This document shows, piece after piece, positions 9,297 through 17,583 of a DNA stretch of 32,883 nt. Numbering within the stretch: the first letter of the stretch is position 1; every line of letters begins with the position of its first letter. This stretch comes from Candidatus Methanomethylophilaceae archaeon (GTDB taxonomy: Archaea; Thermoplasmatota; Thermoplasmata; Methanomassiliicoccales; Methanomethylophilaceae). The notes below the pieces were generated by a model. The model worked only from the letters and a program-made list of their open reading frames with translations. It searched no databases and was not told the DNA's origin. The stretch is from assembly GCA_017540825.1 (NCBI GenBank), contig JAFYAH010000006.1:1-32883 (forward strand), read 5' to 3'. The position numbers were made by a program, and so were the translations under genes.

Positions 9297-10586
9297 TCAG
9301 GCGGGCGGCCGCTCTTCCACGCATTTGCGGAGGGCCTCGTCGATCGTTCCGGATGACACTACGACCTTCACCCCCAGGTTCCTGAGGACCTTGGCCGGCA
9401 TCGGGCCTATCTCGCTCACCACGACGCACCCGCAGTCGCTGAGGGAGGACACTATAGATTCGATGTGCCTGCGGTGGCTCTCGCCCGAGACGTCGGATCC
9501 CTTGTCCACAGCGGTTTCCCCCAGCAGCCTTGCGGATTCCCCTCTGGCCTCGTATATCAGGAACCTCTTCGCGTTGCCGAACCCCGAATCCACGAGCTCC
9601 CCGTCCGCAGAGGCCACTGCGCACTTGCGCGGATCCCTCGTACCTTCTAGATTGATGAGCTGGGGGCCGGGCCCGCATCCGCTGGCGCATCCCCCTATGT
9701 TCACGAACTCCTGGGACCTGTCCTCCCCCAGGAGCCCTATCGCGTCCGCTCTGCAGTGCCTGCAGTGGCGCATCATCTTGACGTCCAGCTCGCACTGGTC
9801 CATGAGCGCCTTCCTCTCTTCGGGGGTGGGCGCCCTCAGGCCGGCGAAGGCGGTCCCCTCGACCGGGATGAGCGGGAGTATGTTGACGATGTAGGCCCCC
9901 AGCGACTTGACCTTCTTCACGAGGTCGGGGATGTGGCTGTCGTTGATCCCGGGGACCATGACGATGTTGACCTTCACCACCATCCCCAGCTCCGCGCATC
10001 TCCTGATGCCTTCGATCTGCTTCTCCATGAGGATGCTGGCGCCTTCTACCCCTGAACGCCTTTCCCCGTCGACCGTGACGAAGCCGTATATCCTGGCCCC
10101 TATCTCTGGGTCGCAGGCGTTCATGGTGACCGTGACGAACCTGACCCCCAGCGAGCGGAGCCTTTCCGCGTTCTCCGGCAGGGCGAGCCCGTTGGTCGAG
10201 ATGCACAGCGTGAGGTCTGGGAACTCCTCCTTCACGAGCTCCAGGGTGCGGAAGGTGCTCTCGTTGGCCAGAGGGTCTCCAGGGCCCGCTATGCCTATGA
10301 CCTTGAGCTCGGGGATCCTCTCCTTCACGAGGCGTATCTTCTCGACCGCCGCTTCTGGCGACAGGACCTCGCTCGTGACGCCGGGGCGGGACTCGTTGGA
10401 GCAGTCGTACTTCCTGTTGCAGTAGTTGCACTGGATGTTGCATCTGGGAGCCACCGGGACGTGCATCCTTGCGAACTTGCGGTGGGCGTCCTCGTTGAAG
10501 CAGGGGTGCTCCGAGAGCGCCTTCATCGCATCGGCCTCGAGAGTCATGCCTGGACCTATGTCCAGCGCGCTTAAATTAGTGTCCAT
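9297..10586 (-). CDS. nifB: NifB, FeMo-cofactor precursor (NifB-co) synthase, radical SAM
   Basis: NifB joins two 4Fe-4S clusters and inserts carbide to make the core of nitrogenase cofactor. The 429-residue protein has a typical N terminus (HPCFNEDAHRKFARMHVPV), the radical-SAM motif CNIQCNYC, then RKYDCSNESRPGVTS. Further NifB motifs are GPGDPLAN, NILPLIPVEGTAF and CRHCRADAIGLLGED. A C-terminal NifX/NafY-like cofactor-binding domain follows (CGCVVVSEIGPMPAKVLRNLGVK). The ATG at 10586 is preferred; the frame is open further upstream into the divergent gene. No nifH, D, K, E or N gene is in the window. Homologues occur in methanogens with and without nitrogenase, so its product here is uncertain. 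It lies upstream of alaS on the same strand. Confidence 0.93.
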   Translation of the reverse strand: MDTNLSALDIGPGMTLEADAMKALSEHPCFNEDAHRKFARMHVPVAPRCNIQCNYCNRKYDCSNESRPGVTSEVLSPEAAVEKIRLVKERIPELKVIGIAGPGDPLANESTFRTLELVKEEFPDLTLCISTNGLALPENAERLRSLGVRFVTVTMNACDPEIGARIYGFVTVDGERRSGVEGASILMEKQIEGIRRCAELGMVVKVNIVMVPGINDSHIPDLVKKVKSLGAYIVNILPLIPVEGTAFAGLRAPTPEERKALMDQCELDVKMMRHCRHCRADAIGLLGEDRSQEFVNIGGCASGCGPGPQLINLEGTRDPRKCAVASADGELVDSGFGNAKRFLIYEARGESARLLGETAVDKGSDVSGESHRRHIESIVSSLSDCGCVVVSEIGPMPAKVLRNLGVKVVVSSGTIDEALRKCVEERPPA

Positions 10587-10623
10587 GGAATCATTGCTTA
10601 TACGCCTCCTGCCTTGTATCCTC

Positions 10624-11013
10624 ATGGACTTCGTGAAATCCATAATGTCCGACCTGAACAGGAACCTCGCGGTCAGCAAGCCCTCTCTGTTCGAGATGGA
10701 GCAGTCTGGGGACTACACGTACCGCACCAGGGACGGCTCCGTCATAGACGTAGGGAAGGAGCAGTTCGAGGTCCTCTGGAACATCTGCGACGACTCGGAG
10801 AGGCTGCGCCTCCGCATCCCGATATACGTATCAACGGACGTGTCGGGGGAGGTCAGCGCATGGAAGGTCGAGGGGAAGGTCGAGGCGGCCGTCGTCGCTA
10901 GGCTTCTCGGAAAGCCTGTGTTCCGGGACGACAGGGTCCGCCTGTACAACCCGGACCTCAGGAAGCTCAAGAAGCTCGTCCCGGACGCATATATGATCGT
11001 GTTCACCCCATGA
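10624..11013 (+). CDS. DUF61 (UPF0216) family protein, function unknown
   Basis: A small soluble protein of 129 residues from an archaeal conserved family with no established function. Family-like features are LNRNLAVSKPSL near the N terminus, a YRTRDGSVIDVGKEQFE segment, LRLRIPIYVSTD, and GKVEAAVVARLLGKP leading to LYNPDLRKLKKLVPDAY. The ATG at 10624 is chosen because CTTATAC near 10597 lies about 25 bases upstream, the spacing of a leaderless transcript; an ATG at 10645 is also possible. It diverges from nifB with only 37 bases between start codons, so both promoters overlap. No terminator with a T-run is seen after it, only a weak CCCG-AATC-CGGG hairpin. Confidence 0.85.
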   Translation: MDFVKSIMSDLNRNLAVSKPSLFEMEQSGDYTYRTRDGSVIDVGKEQFEVLWNICDDSERLRLRIPIYVSTDVSGEVSAWKVEGKVEAAVVARLLGKPVFRDDRVRLYNPDLRKLKKLVPDAYMIVFTP

Positions 11014-11355: not shown

Positions 11356-14300
11356 ATGGAAAAGAACAAGATGATAGCGATCATCGTCGTTGCTATCGCG
11401 ATTATTGCTGCGATAGCCGCTGCGGTGGTCCTCACATCGGGGAACGGCAACGACAGCAAGGACGTCAAAGTGAATGGCGTTGTGCTGAACCCTGCCACCC
11501 TGTCCCTCGAGGAAGGCGGCCAGGGAAAGCTTACCGTGACCGTCTCCCCCTCCAACGCGACTAACAAGAACGTCACCTGGTCCACCAGCAACGCCTCCGT
11601 GGCGACCGTCTCCAACGGGGTCGTCACCGCCAAGTCTCAAGGGACGGCGACCATCACGGTGACCACCGTCGACGGCAAGCTGGCCACCACATGCGACGTT
11701 ACCGTGGTCGGATCGTCCGTGGTCCCCGTGACCGGGATCGCGCTCGACAAGAGGACCATGGACCTCGAGAAGGGCCAGACCGGCACCATCGTCGCCACCG
11801 TCATGCCCGACAACGCGACCAACAAGACCATCAACTGGTCCACCAAGGACTCTTCCGTAGCGACCGTCTCCAACGGTGTCGTCACCGCGGTCGGAGCCGG
11901 GACCACCGACATCGCGGCCACGTCCGCGGACGGGAAGGTCACCACCCTGTGCCATGTCACCGTCACCAGCCCGGTCGAAGTCTCTACCATGGACGAGGCC
12001 ATCCTCAAGGTCTACGGGAACGTCAACGGGGACAAGGTCATCGACGCGAAGGACGTAGCCATCATCCAGTCCCTCATAGCCGCCGGCGCCAAGGCCACCG
12101 ACGCAAACAAGATGGCCGACGCCAACAACGACGGCGCCATCGACGCCAAGGACGTGGCGGCCGTCAACAAGATCATCGCCCGCGAGCCCACCACCATCTG
12201 GCACATCAACTACCACGACCAGGACAGCAACGGGACCATGGACGAGATCCTCGTGGAGACCCAGTTCCCGATCAGCTCCGTCATCATGACGGGCTCGTCC
12301 AACTCATTCCTGCTCATGTGGATGCTCGGGATAGTCGACGAGGTCAAGGGGGCCTGCTACAGCACCACCGTCGACACCTACTTCAGCGACACCTATCTGA
12401 ACACCGACAAGGTGAAGAAGCTGGGGTCCAAGTCCTACGAGATCCCCTTGGAGGACGGCAAGGCCGGGTCGTCCAACATAATCGCGGAGGAGAACGTCAC
12501 CGCAGTGATAACCGACTGGAACAGGACGTACATCTCCAACTGGCAGAGCTACGAGGCCATGGGCGTCGACGTCGTCAGGGTGGCCGCGGCCTCCGTGGAG
12601 ACGGACGTGTTCTCGCACGGGGCGCTCCTGCTCGGGCTCCTGTTCGGCAAGGTCGACAGGGCTGTCGAGCTCGTAGACTTCTACAACAACATCTATGCGC
12701 AGATCGACGCGAAGCTCTACAACGTCGCCGAGGCGGACAAGCCCGGGTTCGTCGCTTCCAGCACCACCGGCAGCCTCTCGGTCGGGAGCTCCGACTACAA
12801 CAAGGTCGGAACGATGGCGGGCGGAAGGTACGCGCTCGATGGCCTCGACTCCCAGGGCAGCTCGAGCGTCAAGATAGCGGACTATCCCCAGATCTACAAC
12901 ACCCAGCTGTACAACTTCGACTACATCCTGCACCTCAGGACAGGGAACTTCTATGCCGGCACCGTGGATGCCGACAAGCTCTGGAACGACTACACCTCGC
13001 CGTTCTCCGACTGGGAGAAGGGGACCGAGGGGCAGTACATCATCTGCGGAGGTATGCCCGTCCCGCTGAGGGCCGCATATGCGCTGACCGTCCTTCACCC
13101 CGAGCTCGCCAGCGTCGAATGGGCCAACGGACTGCACCAGCAGCTCGTGGACAAGTTCTTCAACGGAGACAAGCTCGACATCGCATCCATGGACTTCATC
13201 ATCCACAAGGGCGAGGGAGACTCCAGCACCGCTCAGCTGATGATCCTCGGCAATGCCAACGACGACGACACCATTGACAGCAAGGACCTCAAGATCGTCA
13301 ACGACATCATCGCCGGCTCCAAGAAGCTCTCCGACTTCCCCATGGCAGACGTCAACAACGACGGGAAGGTCGACTCCGCCGACGTCGACCTCCTGAACAA
13401 GATCATCAAGAGGGAGTCCACGACTCTGTACGTGGCCTGCCTCGGCGTCGACGGAAAGGAGACCGTCGTGGAGGTCAAGTATCCCCTGAGGAACGTCGTC
13501 ACCTACGCCACCAACATGCAGATGCCCGCCCTCTTCGCCAACGGCGGCCAGTACATCGCCGGATACTTCGCGTCCTCCTACGACGTCGCGGAGTCCTCCA
13601 TAAGCGCGTCCGCCGTCGACCTTAAGGGCAACCAGAGGCAGATCACCGACGAGGCCTGGGCTAACTTCACCGCCCTTGACGCCAAGCTCGCCTCCCAGGG
13701 AGGCATTGGAGCCGTCCTCGTCGACCACAGCGGAATCGCCCAGTTCACCGAGTCCCGCATGGCCGACCTCAAGGCATCCGGCATTCCGATGATCGACTAC
13801 ACGTCCGCCGACGCCGTCGACGAGCTGCAGACCGTCCTCACCCTAGGGTTCCTCTTCGGAGGCGACTGCGAGAAGGTCGGGCGCGACTACGCCAAGCTCG
13901 GATGGGACGTCAAGGAGAAGGTCCAGAGCGAGGTGTCCAAGATGTCATCCAGCGACCTGGTCTCCTACATTTGCGGGACCATGTACATCTACGTCTGCGG
14001 GCCCGACTCTTCTTTCAACACCACCGCGGCCACCGCGGGAGGGGTGCCCTACTCCACCCTGAACGCCGACTTCGCCTCGAAGTACACCAAGAACTCCACC
14101 AAGATGTCCTCCACCGAGGCGCTCTCCAACTACACCGACGCGGGAATCTTCATCAACAACCGCTCGATGGACTGGGGCCTCACCGCGGCCGAGAAGGCCG
14201 ACTTGATAAAGGACACCTGGGACCACAGCAACAGCGGCGTCTCTTCGAGGGAGTACTTCAAGGACTTCGAGGACAAGCTGGTCTACGTCGACAACCTGCT

Positions 14301-14484
14301 CCCCGGAGGGGTCAAGATCGCCTACATGGCCCACGCCATGTACGGGGACACCTTCACCAGGGAGTGGGCCGACGGCGTGCTCCAGAGCTACATAGACTGC
14401 GGCACCCTGCCTCTGGCCGGCCAGACCCTGGACACTGTCCTCGCCTACATAACCTTCGACGACTTCAAGGCCGTCTCAAACTGA
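11356..14484 (+). CDS. Exported tandem substrate-binding protein with BIG2 and dockerin-like domains
   Basis: A 1042-residue surface protein, likely the ligand-capture subunit of the ABC importer encoded next. In order: one N-terminal hydrophobic helix (about 6-26, no lipobox Cys), two BIG2 Ig-like domains (about 37-118 and 123-205; NVTWSTSNASVATVSNGVVTA in the first), and a dockerin-like pair of EF-hand loops (216-276, GNVNGDKVIDAKD and ADANNDGAIDAKD). Next come a first metal-chelate-type binding module (278-620), a second EF-hand pair (628-688, GNANDDDTIDSKD and ADVNNDGKVDSAD) and a second binding module (690-1042). Binding modules are called from weak family resemblance (ISSVIMTGSSNSFLL, RNVVTYATNMQM) and from context with FecCD permeases. 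The ligand is unknown; a metal chelate, siderophore or corrinoid is likely. Many NxS/T sites fit an external location. Start supported by AAGGTGGG upstream. Confidence 0.85.
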   Translation: MEKNKMIAIIVVAIAIIAAIAAAVVLTSGNGNDSKDVKVNGVVLNPATLSLEEGGQGKLTVTVSPSNATNKNVTWSTSNASVATVSNGVVTAKSQGTATITVTTVDGKLATTCDVTVVGSSVVPVTGIALDKRTMDLEKGQTGTIVATVMPDNATNKTINWSTKDSSVATVSNGVVTAVGAGTTDIAATSADGKVTTLCHVTVTSPVEVSTMDEAILKVYGNVNGDKVIDAKDVAIIQSLIAAGAKATDANKMADANNDGAIDAKDVAAVNKIIAREPTTIWHINYHDQDSNGTMDEILVETQFPISSVIMTGSSNSFLLMWMLGIVDEVKGACYSTTVDTYFSDTYLNTDKVKKLGSKSYEIPLEDGKAGSSNIIAEENVTAVITDWNRTYISNWQSYEAMGVDVVRVAAASVETDVFSHGALLLGLLFGKVDRAVELVDFYNNIYAQIDAKLYNVAEADKPGFVASSTTGSLSVGSSDYNKVGTMAGGRYALDGLDSQGSSSVKIADYPQIYNTQLYNFDYILHLRTGNFYAGTVDADKLWNDYTSPFSDWEKGTEGQYIICGGMPVPLRAAYALTVLHPELASVEWANGLHQQLVDKFFNGDKLDIASMDFIIHKGEGDSSTAQLMILGNANDDDTIDSKDLKIVNDIIAGSKKLSDFPMADVNNDGKVDSADVDLLNKIIKRESTTLYVACLGVDGKETVVEVKYPLRNVVTYATNMQMPALFANGGQYIAGYFASSYDVAESSISASAVDLKGNQRQITDEAWANFTALDAKLASQGGIGAVLVDHSGIAQFTESRMADLKASGIPMIDYTSADAVDELQTVLTLGFLFGGDCEKVGRDYAKLGWDVKEKVQSEVSKMSSSDLVSYICGTMYIYVCGPDSSFNTTAATAGGVPYSTLNADFASKYTKNSTKMSSTEALSNYTDAGIFINNRSMDWGLTAAEKADLIKDTWDHSNSGVSSREYFKDFEDKLVYVDNLLPGGVKIAYMAHAMYGDTFTREWADGVLQSYIDCGTLPLAGQTLDTVLAYITFDDFKAVSN

Positions 14485-14526: not shown

Positions 14527-15615
14527 ATGAACTACAACGGGAATACCGACAAGGAGTCCGTGATAAGCGAGTATCATCGCCAGATCGCCAGGAAGCTCCT
14601 GGTGCTGGCGCTCTGCGTGATCGGGATCGTCCTCTTCGTCGGCCTGCTCTCGCTGTGCGTCTATGACAACATGACCCTGGCCGAGGCCTACGAGGTCATA
14701 TGGAACCACATCACTGGGCAGCCATACGAGCCTCGCAGCAGGTTCTGGTGGGCGGACCGCTACATCTGGAACACCGCCATGCCCCATGCGATCGTCGCCA
14801 TACTCGCAGGCGCGTCCCTCGCGGTCTGCGGGACACTGATGCAGGCCATCATGGGCAACCCTCTCGCGGACCCCTACAGCACCGGCATATCGTCCGGGGC
14901 GTGCTTCGGCGCCGTCGCCGCCATAGTCGTCGGGATATCGTTCGCAAGCGTGGCCAGCGAGGTCGGGCTGGTGACCAACGCGTTCATCGGGGCCCTGGTG
15001 CCTGCGGGCCTGATAATCCTGATCTCGTCCAAGATACGCATGACCCCCGCCACTCTCATCCTGCTGGGGACCGCGATATCCTACTTCTTCAACTCTATGA
15101 TCACCTACCTCATGGTCACCACCGACGCCGACACCCTGAAGAGCGCCTACATGTGGCAGATAGGCAGCCTGGACGGCATGTCCTGGAGCTACATCCCCCT
15201 CATGCTGGCGGTCACCGTCCTGGGCTCCGCGTTCGTGATGCTGATGTCGAGGAAGCTCAACGTGATGTCCCTCGGCGAGAACAGCGCGACCAGCCTGGGG
15301 ATAGACGTCCAGCGCTTCCGCACGATCTGCCTGGTCATAATGGCCTTTATGACAGCCTCCATCGTCGCCTTCACCGGCATCATAGGTTTCGTCGGGCTGG
15401 TGGCCCCGCATCTCGTGAGGCTTCTCGTAGGGTCCGACAACAGGTTCGTCATGCCCATCTCGATGGCGGTCGGCGCTCTGTTGCTTCTCATAGCGGACTA
15501 CCTGGCCTACCAGCTGTCTAACATCCCTGTAGGGGTCGTGATGAGCATCATCGGAAGCCCCGTGTTCCTGCTGCTGATAATGTACCATACAAGAAAGGCG
15601 GGTGCGCTGTATTGA
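14527..15615 (+). CDS. FecCD/BtuC-type ABC importer permease, first copy
   Basis: Membrane subunit for uptake of a metal chelate, siderophore or cobalamin-type ligand. The 362-residue protein has about nine to ten hydrophobic helices and the family stretches GASLAVCGTLMQAIMGNPLADPYSTGISSGA (split here at residues 98-128), LNVMSLGENSATSLGID (the ATPase-contact region) and GFVGLVAPHLVR. An extra hydrophilic N-terminal tail of about 25 residues precedes the first helix. Start ATG is preceded by AAGGATG. Its stop overlaps the start of the second permease (TTGA at 15612-15615), so the two are translationally coupled. It differs clearly from the second copy, suggesting a heterodimeric pore, since BtuC-type importers need two permease subunits. 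Confidence 0.93.
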   Translation: MNYNGNTDKESVISEYHRQIARKLLVLALCVIGIVLFVGLLSLCVYDNMTLAEAYEVIWNHITGQPYEPRSRFWWADRYIWNTAMPHAIVAILAGASLAVCGTLMQAIMGNPLADPYSTGISSGACFGAVAAIVVGISFASVASEVGLVTNAFIGALVPAGLIILISSKIRMTPATLILLGTAISYFFNSMITYLMVTTDADTLKSAYMWQIGSLDGMSWSYIPLMLAVTVLGSAFVMLMSRKLNVMSLGENSATSLGIDVQRFRTICLVIMAFMTASIVAFTGIIGFVGLVAPHLVRLLVGSDNRFVMPISMAVGALLLLIADYLAYQLSNIPVGVVMSIIGSPVFLLLIMYHTRKAGALY

Positions 15616-16676
15616 TCGTCGATTCCGTAGCCGTCAAAGGCGAGTACGTATCCGGCAACAGGAGGAGGGTCCTCTGGACGCTGTCGTTCGTCGTGCTGGC
15701 GCTGGCGCTGTTCTTCGTGACCCTCGGTTTCGGGGTGTTCAAGATATCCGTGGTCGACGCGATAGCCGTGTTCTTCGACCATATCCTCGGGAACTACGTC
15801 GACCCGAGGGCGGACGTCTACGTATGGGACACCCGCGTGCCTCGCGCGCTGGGCGCCGTCATAGCCGGCTCGGGCCTCGCCGTGGCCGGAGTCGTTATGC
15901 AGAACGACTTCAAGAACCCCCTTGCGGAGCCCTACACGATGGGGATATCGTCAGGAGCTTTCCTCGGGGCGACGCTGGGGATAATAATGAACATATCGGT
16001 GGTGCCGTTCGTCCCCGCCGGCAGCCAGGTGGTCGCCAACGCCTACGTGTTCTCGCTGATACCCGTAGCTATAATTGCGCTGTTCTCCAAGTTCAGGAAG
16101 CTGACCCCGATGAGCATGATCCTCACGGGGATAGCCGTGATGTTCCTGTTCAGCTCCATCAGCCAGATCCTCATGGTGACCGCGCCCTCCGAAAGCCTCG
16201 CGGACGCGTATGCATGGAGGGTGGGGTCCCTGGACAGGGTGCGCTGGGACGCGGTCCCGATGATGGCAGGATCCACGATCCTGCTGGGCGTCCTGCTCTA
16301 CATGTTCGCAGGAAGGCTCAACGTGATGTACGTCGGCGACAGGAGCGTCAAGACCCTGGGTGAGAGCCCGATGTTCATTCGCCTGGCCACGATGATCCTG
16401 GCGTCCCTCCTCACCGCAGGGATAGTCTCGTACACCGGGACCATAGGCTTCATCGGCCTGGTGGGACCGCACGTGGCCCGCATCTTCATAGGCTCCAACA
16501 ACCGCTATCTGATTCCCGCTTCCGCGGCTTTCGGAGCGGCCTTCATCCTGTTCGCGGACACCGTGGCCAAGGTCTCGGGCATAAACGGACTTCCTGTGGG
16601 CGTCATAAGCTCCATGGTGGGCGGCCCGCTGTTCATCTGGATACTGATCAAGCAGAGGAAGAACGTATGGGCCTGA
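15612..16676 (+). CDS. FecCD/BtuC-type ABC importer permease, second copy
   Basis: Second membrane subunit of the same importer, 354 residues with about nine to ten helices. Family motifs are GSGLAVAGVVMQNDFKNPLA, LNVMYVGDRSVKTLGE (coupling region) and TGTIGFIGLVGPHVAR. The start is a TTG inside the previous stop (TTGA), with AAGGCGGGTG just upstream; no ATG occurs near enough to give a full-length protein, so TTG initiation is well supported. The ATPase gene follows after 64 bases and has its own TATA box. Sequence similarity to the first permease is family-level, not that of a recent duplication. Confidence 0.92.
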   Translation: MIVDSVAVKGEYVSGNRRRVLWTLSFVVLALALFFVTLGFGVFKISVVDAIAVFFDHILGNYVDPRADVYVWDTRVPRALGAVIAGSGLAVAGVVMQNDFKNPLAEPYTMGISSGAFLGATLGIIMNISVVPFVPAGSQVVANAYVFSLIPVAIIALFSKFRKLTPMSMILTGIAVMFLFSSISQILMVTAPSESLADAYAWRVGSLDRVRWDAVPMMAGSTILLGVLLYMFAGRLNVMYVGDRSVKTLGESPMFIRLATMILASLLTAGIVSYTGTIGFIGLVGPHVARIFIGSNNRYLIPASAAFGAAFILFADTVAKVSGINGLPVGVISSMVGGPLFIWILIKQRKNVWA

Positions 16677-16693
16677 CCGCTTCGAACGGATTG

Positions 16694-16702
16694 TTTTATA
16701 TC
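16694..16702 (+). promoter_or_regulatory. TATA box for the ABC ATPase
   Basis: GTTTTATATC lies in the 64-base gap after the second permease, about 40 bases before the ATG at 16741. It implies the ATPase can be transcribed independently of the permeases. Confidence 0.5.
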
Positions 16703-16713
16703 TCGCATTCATA

Positions 16714-16728
16714 TGGATGTTGCATCCA
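16714..16728. promoter_or_regulatory. TGGATG-TTG-CATCCA inverted repeat, candidate operator
   Basis: Perfect 6-bp arms around three bases, lying about 15-25 bases after the TATA box and so over the expected transcription start. Binding here would block the ATPase transcript. The same hexamer forms the core of the inverted repeat before the binding protein (11232-11290). Confidence 0.5.
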
Positions 16729-16740
16729 GAAGGTGATCTC

Positions 16741-17583
16741 ATGGAGCTGAGGATAAAGGACGTGTGCTTCTCGTACTCCAGCGTGCCTGTGCTGAAGGAC
16801 GTCTCTTTCGATCTGGGCGGGAACGAGCTGGTGTCCATACTCGGCCCCAACGGGGTGGGGAAGTCCACTCTCATCCATTGTATCAACAAGATACTCGCTC
16901 CGACTTCCGGGACGGTGCTCATAGACGGGAAGGACGTGTCGGAGATAAAGCTCAAGGAGCTCGCCAAGCAGATCGGGTACGTGCCGTATTCGGCCAACGA
17001 CTCCTTCCCGCTCTCGGTCATAGACACGGTGATGATAGGGAGGCATCCGCATAGCAGGTGGGGGACCCTGGACAAGGACCTGGACATCGTGTACGATACG
17101 TTAAGGATGCTCGGCATATCGCATCTGGCCATGAGGGCGTTCAACGAGCTCTCGGCGGGGCAGCACCAGAAGGTCATGCTCGCCCGCGGTCTGGTTCAAG
17201 AGCCCGAGATACTCCTTCTCGACGAGCCGACCTCCAACCTGGACGTGAGGCATCAGCTGGACGTCACCAAGATGCTGAGGAGGCTTTCGAGGGAGAAGGG
17301 CATCCTAATCGTCATGATAAGCCACGACATCAACATCGCCGCGAAATACTCGGACAAGATCATCCTGATGCACGAAGGTTCCGTCTACGACATAGGGACG
17401 CCGAACGAGGTGATCACCGCGGACAATCTGCGCACGGTGTACGGCGTCACCGCGGAGATAACGAAGGACGACGACGCGCCGCATGTGATCCTCAAGGACG
17501 CGCTGCCGATGGACGAGGATTGCGAGGAGGCCTCGGAGAAAGCGGTCCCCTCGGTCGAAGGGAAGACGGACGCAGCGGTATGA
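16741..17583 (+). CDS. ABC transporter ATPase of the FecE/BtuD type
   Basis: Energy-coupling subunit for the two FecCD permeases, 280 residues. Walker A is GPNGVGKST (35-43), the signature is LSAGQ, Walker B is ILLLDEPTS, and the switch His is in ISHD. The Q-loop region (GYVPYS) departs slightly from the common form. A C-terminal acidic tail of about 30 residues follows the conserved domain. The ATG at 16741 is chosen because GAAGGTGA sits six bases upstream and MELRIKDVCFSY is the usual start; the frame is also open from 16717. It converges on the winged-helix gene with only 17 bases between stops. Confidence 0.95.
   Translation: MELRIKDVCFSYSSVPVLKDVSFDLGGNELVSILGPNGVGKSTLIHCINKILAPTSGTVLIDGKDVSEIKLKELAKQIGYVPYSANDSFPLSVIDTVMIGRHPHSRWGTLDKDLDIVYDTLRMLGISHLAMRAFNELSAGQHQKVMLARGLVQEPEILLLDEPTSNLDVRHQLDVTKMLRRLSREKGILIVMISHDINIAAKYSDKIILMHEGSVYDIGTPNEVITADNLRTVYGVTAEITKDDDAPHVILKDALPMDEDCEEASEKAVPSVEGKTDAAV

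Follow-up and report, generated by a model that had tools for sequence, protein, structure and literature searches.

The closest described systems are importers that combine class III binding proteins of the FecB/BtuF type (Peripla_BP_2, PF01497) with FecCD permeases (PF01032), and the receptor described here shares with them the common fold and a FecCD-FecCD-ATPase operon. It differs from them in that two unlike modules are present on one chain, each placed on a dockerin, behind a membrane anchor and two Big_2 domains, and in that one of the modules appears to belong by descent to another importer. Dockerins joined to extracellular ABC binding proteins have likewise been reported for ANME archaea, but those binding proteins are of other types, NikA/OppA and TroA, and the accessible part of that report describes no two-headed fusion (PMC9012536). 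GlnPQ likewise carries two unlike binding domains on a single polypeptide. However, both domains of GlnPQ are attached to the same transmembrane domain and work for a single importer, and they belong to a different binding-protein class and are devoid of dockerins (PMC8025302).

The window, i.e., the whole stretch of 32,883 nucleotides that was analysed, is contig C51 of an archaeal MAG of 2.37 Mb that is 95.6% complete. Its named relatives are MAGs of Candidatus Methanomethylophilaceae, Methanomassiliicoccaceae and Thermoplasmata, two of which are labelled rumen or omasum. The receptor gene heads a FecCD-FecCD-ATPase operon, with the permease and ATPase genes at 14527-17583 and 42 bases between the receptor gene and the first permease gene; this supports the predicted role as an importer receptor. 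In contrast to GlnPQ, the permeases are encoded by genes apart from the receptor, and the binding domains have no fused transmembrane domain. The features of the locus are:

11356..14484, +, two-headed receptor gene, 1042 aa, ATG start (ORF and Pfam)
11368..11436, +, predicted N-terminal hydrophobic membrane anchor, residues ~5-27 (sequence reading; anchoring inferred)
11470..11697, +, Big_2 domain 1, residues 39-114 (Pfam PF02368)
11719..11967, +, Big_2 domain 2, residues ~122-204 (second PF02368 stretch; limits by eye)
12013..12177, +, dockerin 1 (PF00404; ligand positions conserved across 83 units)
12214..13215, +, class III binding module 1, M1-type receptor, residues ~287-620 (profile, Foldseek, tree)
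13258..13407, +, dockerin 2 (PF00404; ligand positions conserved across 83 units)
13444..14481, +, class III binding module 2, M2-type receptor, residues ~697-1042 (profile, Foldseek, tree)
14527..15615, +, FecCD permease 1 of the M2 importer (PF01032, E 8e-81; permease tree)
15612..16676, +, FecCD permease 2 of the M2 importer (PF01032, E 4e-77)
16717..17583, +, ABC ATPase of the M2 importer (PF00005, E 4e-32)

The order of anchor, Big_2, Big_2, dockerin, class III (FecB-type) module, dockerin and class III module, which the original prediction had read from the translation, was borne out by the open reading frame and Pfam. The residues ~5-27 are hydrophobic and lack a lipobox Cys, Big_2 was matched twice (E 3.7e-26), and Dockerin_1 was also matched twice, above the Pfam cut-off (E 5.1e-13 for the whole protein). 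Dockerin 1 consists of two 12-residue EF-hand loops, N-V-N-G-D...D and D-A-N-N-D...D. The predicted dockerin-like nature of the EF-hand pairs agrees with the loops of 83 family dockerins, in which position 1 is invariably N in loop 1 and D in loop 2, and position 12 is invariably D in both. Two-unit genes were also found in the independent MAGs SIG7, RGIG6046 and RGIG8197, and because of this recurrence an assembly artefact is an unlikely source of the gene.

Neither of the two modules of about 340 residues yielded a significant match of its own in the Pfam search of the receptor, and a family profile built from 38 aligned dockerin-module units was needed to link them to the class III fold. 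Twelve of these 38 units match Peripla_BP_2 individually. Among solved structures, the profile matches class III binding proteins over positions ~86-385 (4mo9, E 1.7e-15; 4hn9, E 1e-13) and dockerins over positions ~5-55. Structure predictions were run for each unit separately and led to class III proteins in both cases. The AlphaFold models reached a pLDDT of 70 and a pTM of 0.78 for unit 1, and a pLDDT of 59 and a pTM of 0.66 for unit 2, values that stand for moderate confidence; both models were built from only nine sequences, and the best-predicted part of both is the dockerin. With Foldseek, 4hn9 was the best match for both units (E 2.3e-10 for unit 1, 2.5e-7 for unit 2), with moderate TM-scores of 0.4-0.5 by query length, and the first PDB matches were FecB, YiuA and CeuE-like structures. 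Profile, AlphaFold and Foldseek thus uphold the predicted FecB/BtuF-type fold of both modules.

The unit of dockerin and FecB-type module is widespread in this lineage. A search of 60 relatives with the unit profile yielded up to 31 matches per genome, and the strong matches listed start at profile positions 1-4, i.e., with the dockerin; a dockerin on a FecB receptor is therefore the rule here and no peculiarity of the window gene. In 295 sampled genomes of the phylum, module-covering matches outside the order begin at positions 57-89 and are therefore without dockerin. In methane-producing gut archaea, the dockerin-FecB family has undergone a large expansion that is specific to the lineage. 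The window genome contains 29 FecCD genes and also many dockerin-FecB receptors, and for the isolate ISO4-G1 15 Fe3+/siderophore importers have been reported (PMC4824259). Literature searches outside subscription papers retrieved no description of dockerin-FecB receptors in this order. It had been predicted that two ligand-capture domains on EF-hand pairs form a distinctive importer architecture. Concerning the dockerins the architecture is less distinctive than predicted, as the dockerin-FecB unit recurs throughout the archaeal family and ANME archaea are reported to carry dockerins on ABC binding proteins of other kinds (PMC9012536, as far as accessible). The combination of the heads of two importers on one chain was not found described. 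The window genome also encodes further long proteins with three FecB-type modules (L036:6641-9976 on C11; C42:5763-8114), and the units of the former have no dockerin. In another genome a dockerin-FecB gene is interrupted by stop codons (L173:15385-16644, G043 C22), which might be a pseudogene or a case of recoding; the order to which it belongs is known for pyrrolysine.

In a maximum-likelihood tree, module 1 is placed in a clade of 17 rows and module 2 in a clade of 15 rows, with the split supported at 100/100. Single-unit genes of the module 2 type adjoin permeases that are orthologous to those of the window (M2; 58-73% identity), and single-unit genes of the module 1 type adjoin a different permease set, M1. 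The permease tree contains clades matching M1 and M2. Receptor and permease distances are correlated (rho 0.73 for M1 and 0.90 for M2), with species phylogeny as a contributing and confounding factor. The two modules are, on the evidence of trees and gene neighbourhoods, deep paralogues, each with single-gene relatives beside its own permeases. The first matches of the window dockerins, its own protein and close two-unit orthologues set aside, are mostly dockerins of their own module type, and dockerin and module distances show a weak correlation (rho 0.31). Both observations fit units that travel as wholes, without being proof.

An intact M1 set is encoded elsewhere in the window genome (C8:16662-19658). 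No binding protein is present beside M1 in the stretch of C8 covered by the analysis, and C8 is absent from the matches of the Peripla_BP_2 search and from the unit-profile matches listed. All three genomes of the genus in which the fusion of modules 1 and 2 was found contain such a receptor-less M1 permease (G000, G018 and G001). At this GAPDH-linked place, G026 and G029 carry module 1 directly upstream of the M1 ATPase. With a threshold of at least 50% identity and counting by eye among the matches listed, an M1 permease was found in 17 genomes of the genus, 16 of which have a receptor of the module-1 clade; the remaining one, G024, has a receptor of a sister type of this clade. In the other 14 genomes of the genus no receptor of the module-1 clade was seen, again by eye among the matches listed.

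The search of archaeal genomes revealed the fusion of modules 1 and 2 not only in G018 and G001, but also in G148, which belongs to another genus of the same family. There, the M1 FecCD pair, the fused gene and the M2 FecCD pair follow one another on one strand. Module 1 of G148 falls together with single-unit genes from G121 and G013, apart from module 1 of the window (AU p 1e-73), and for module 2 a single fused clade was not rejected (AU p 0.13); these and the other AU values are only indicative, because the groups were defined once the first tree was known. The fusion in G148 is apparently independent, and two fusions would be the simplest reading of the trees. A single old fusion with several later splits is possible, because a single fused clade of module 2 was not rejected. 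Other joins also exist, with a different unit before module 2 in G002 and another unit type before a module-1-type unit in G006.

Taken together, the phylogenies and gene neighbourhoods show, as far as descent can be read from sequences, that the gene joins, in a heterotypic fusion, dockerin-FecB receptor units from two different FecCD-type ABC importers. Unit 2 represents the receptor type of the adjacent M2 permease, and unit 1 that of the M1 permease on C8 in the same genome, which has no adjoining binding protein. The anchored chain, spaced by the Big_2 domains, would expose both heads on the cell surface, each of them delivering its ligand to its own permease, so that a single protein would serve two importers. 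The EF-hand pairs would bind calcium and form a close base for the heads, without plugging into cohesins, and the ligands may be metallo-tetrapyrroles, the last step being a weaker inference. A fused two-headed receptor that probably serves two importers, perhaps for tetrapyrroles, is the best explanation as a whole, and we consider the chances that it is correct to be about even. That the anchored receptor serves two ABC importers, one of which has its receptor-less permease encoded elsewhere, and that gut methanogens evolved this arrangement two or more times, is a tentative claim to which we give slightly less than even chances. M1 could be served by an unlinked receptor, the genome being 95.6% complete, and the ATPase and permease of M1 might no longer be functional in spite of their open reading frames. 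If the heads do serve two importers, the receptors of two ABC importers have been united on a single chain by gene fusion, in a design that recurs in nature.

The original prediction was that the gene arose by duplication of the unit of EF-hand pair and module. Homotypic arrays that would make a tandem duplication of a single unit within the gene conceivable exist nearby: the window genome encodes a true recent array, a 1315-residue receptor whose three dockerin-FecB units are closely related (L028:6775-10722 on C15), and two triple genes of G018 are similar to it. However, modules 1 and 2 have an identity of only ~20%, their comparison by BLAST yielded no extended alignment, and constraining the two window modules together cost 507 log-likelihood units (AU p 3.7e-27). 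An in-gene duplication is therefore rejected on the basis of the separate, fully supported clades and the rejection of sisterhood, and we attach next to no probability to it. A more serious alternative is that both heads feed the adjacent M2 permease only and widen its ligand range, with the C8 permease idle or using another receptor. The single operon with one permease pair adjoining the receptor would be in line with this, and GlnPQ is a precedent for two domains of different specificity on one importer (PMC8025302). Nevertheless, we regard it as rather unlikely, since it leaves aside the intact receptor-less M1 permeases in each of the three genomes of the genus that carry the fusion, the association of module 1 with M1 permeases in relatives, and the fused gene of G148 that is flanked by both permease pairs.

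A further alternative concerns the dockerins, which might plug the receptor into a cohesin-bearing surface scaffold that holds the heads. The window genome indeed encodes two cohesin proteins (C50:70344-70877 and C23:20164-21429; L038 and L039), one with a cohesin and a dockerin, the other combining a cohesin with Big_2 repeats and a hydrophobic segment at its C-terminus, and more cohesins are present in the nearest relatives. However, the receptor has its own predicted membrane anchor, loop positions 10 and 11 differ among units, and dockerin-FecB units are abundant in near-complete genomes without detected cohesin. Cohesins were not detected in most near-complete receptor-carrying relatives, also not with a lineage-specific cohesin profile, although divergent cohesins could escape detection. 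Cohesin-dockerin anchoring is therefore disfavoured as a general role, and we consider a scaffold-bound receptor to be improbable. In contrast to the variable positions 10 and 11, the predicted calcium-ligand positions are almost invariant over the 83 units, far beyond chance. In most units, 29-41 residues separate the last predicted calcium ligand from the first proline that is conserved in the head, which argues for the dockerin as a close base instead of a long tether. The calcium-dependent tethering of the heads that had been predicted is plausible, and because so many near-complete genomes with dockerin-FecB genes lack a detected cohesin, the EF-hand pair is more likely to be a calcium-stabilised base than a cohesin plug.

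The ligand clues come from subfamily models and from neighbouring genes. None of the NCBIfam subfamily models reached its cut-off on the window permeases and ATPase; the nearest models, below cut-off, were BtuC, F420-0, and heme or corrinoid types. In at least nine genomes, CobN-type chelatases are encoded in the surroundings retrieved for single-unit M1 or M2 loci, and ChlI/ChlD-type and nitrogenase-like genes lie near some of these loci. Because chelatase and nitrogenase-like genes adjoin many single-unit loci, a tetrapyrrole ligand is a reasonable guess. G148 contains cbiF- and cbiH-type genes 12-15 kb from the fused gene. In gut bacteria the CobN homologue HmuS acts as a heme de-chelatase, and the archaeal members of the CobN/HmuS superfamily have been called functionally unclear (PMC12583661). 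In comparison with that link to heme uptake, CobN homologues adjoin single-unit M1/M2 loci of relatives, but no CobN gene is present beside the window operon. The association of M1/M2-type importers with CobN-type chelatases offers a testable setting for the archaeal CobN/HmuS homologues.

The window genome contains five CobN-type chelatase genes at other places (C40:4633-11619, C24:2081-9180 and C36:41045-44014). At four of its loci (L024, L030, L031 and L035), nitrogenase-like genes adjoin FecB-type importers, and at the first three of these a CfbC/NifH-like reductase shares one long open reading frame with a NifD-like sequence. In the window itself, a NifB-type radical SAM protein, above the NCBIfam cut-off and with a C-terminal Nitro_FeMo-Co domain, is encoded on the minus strand at 9297-10679.
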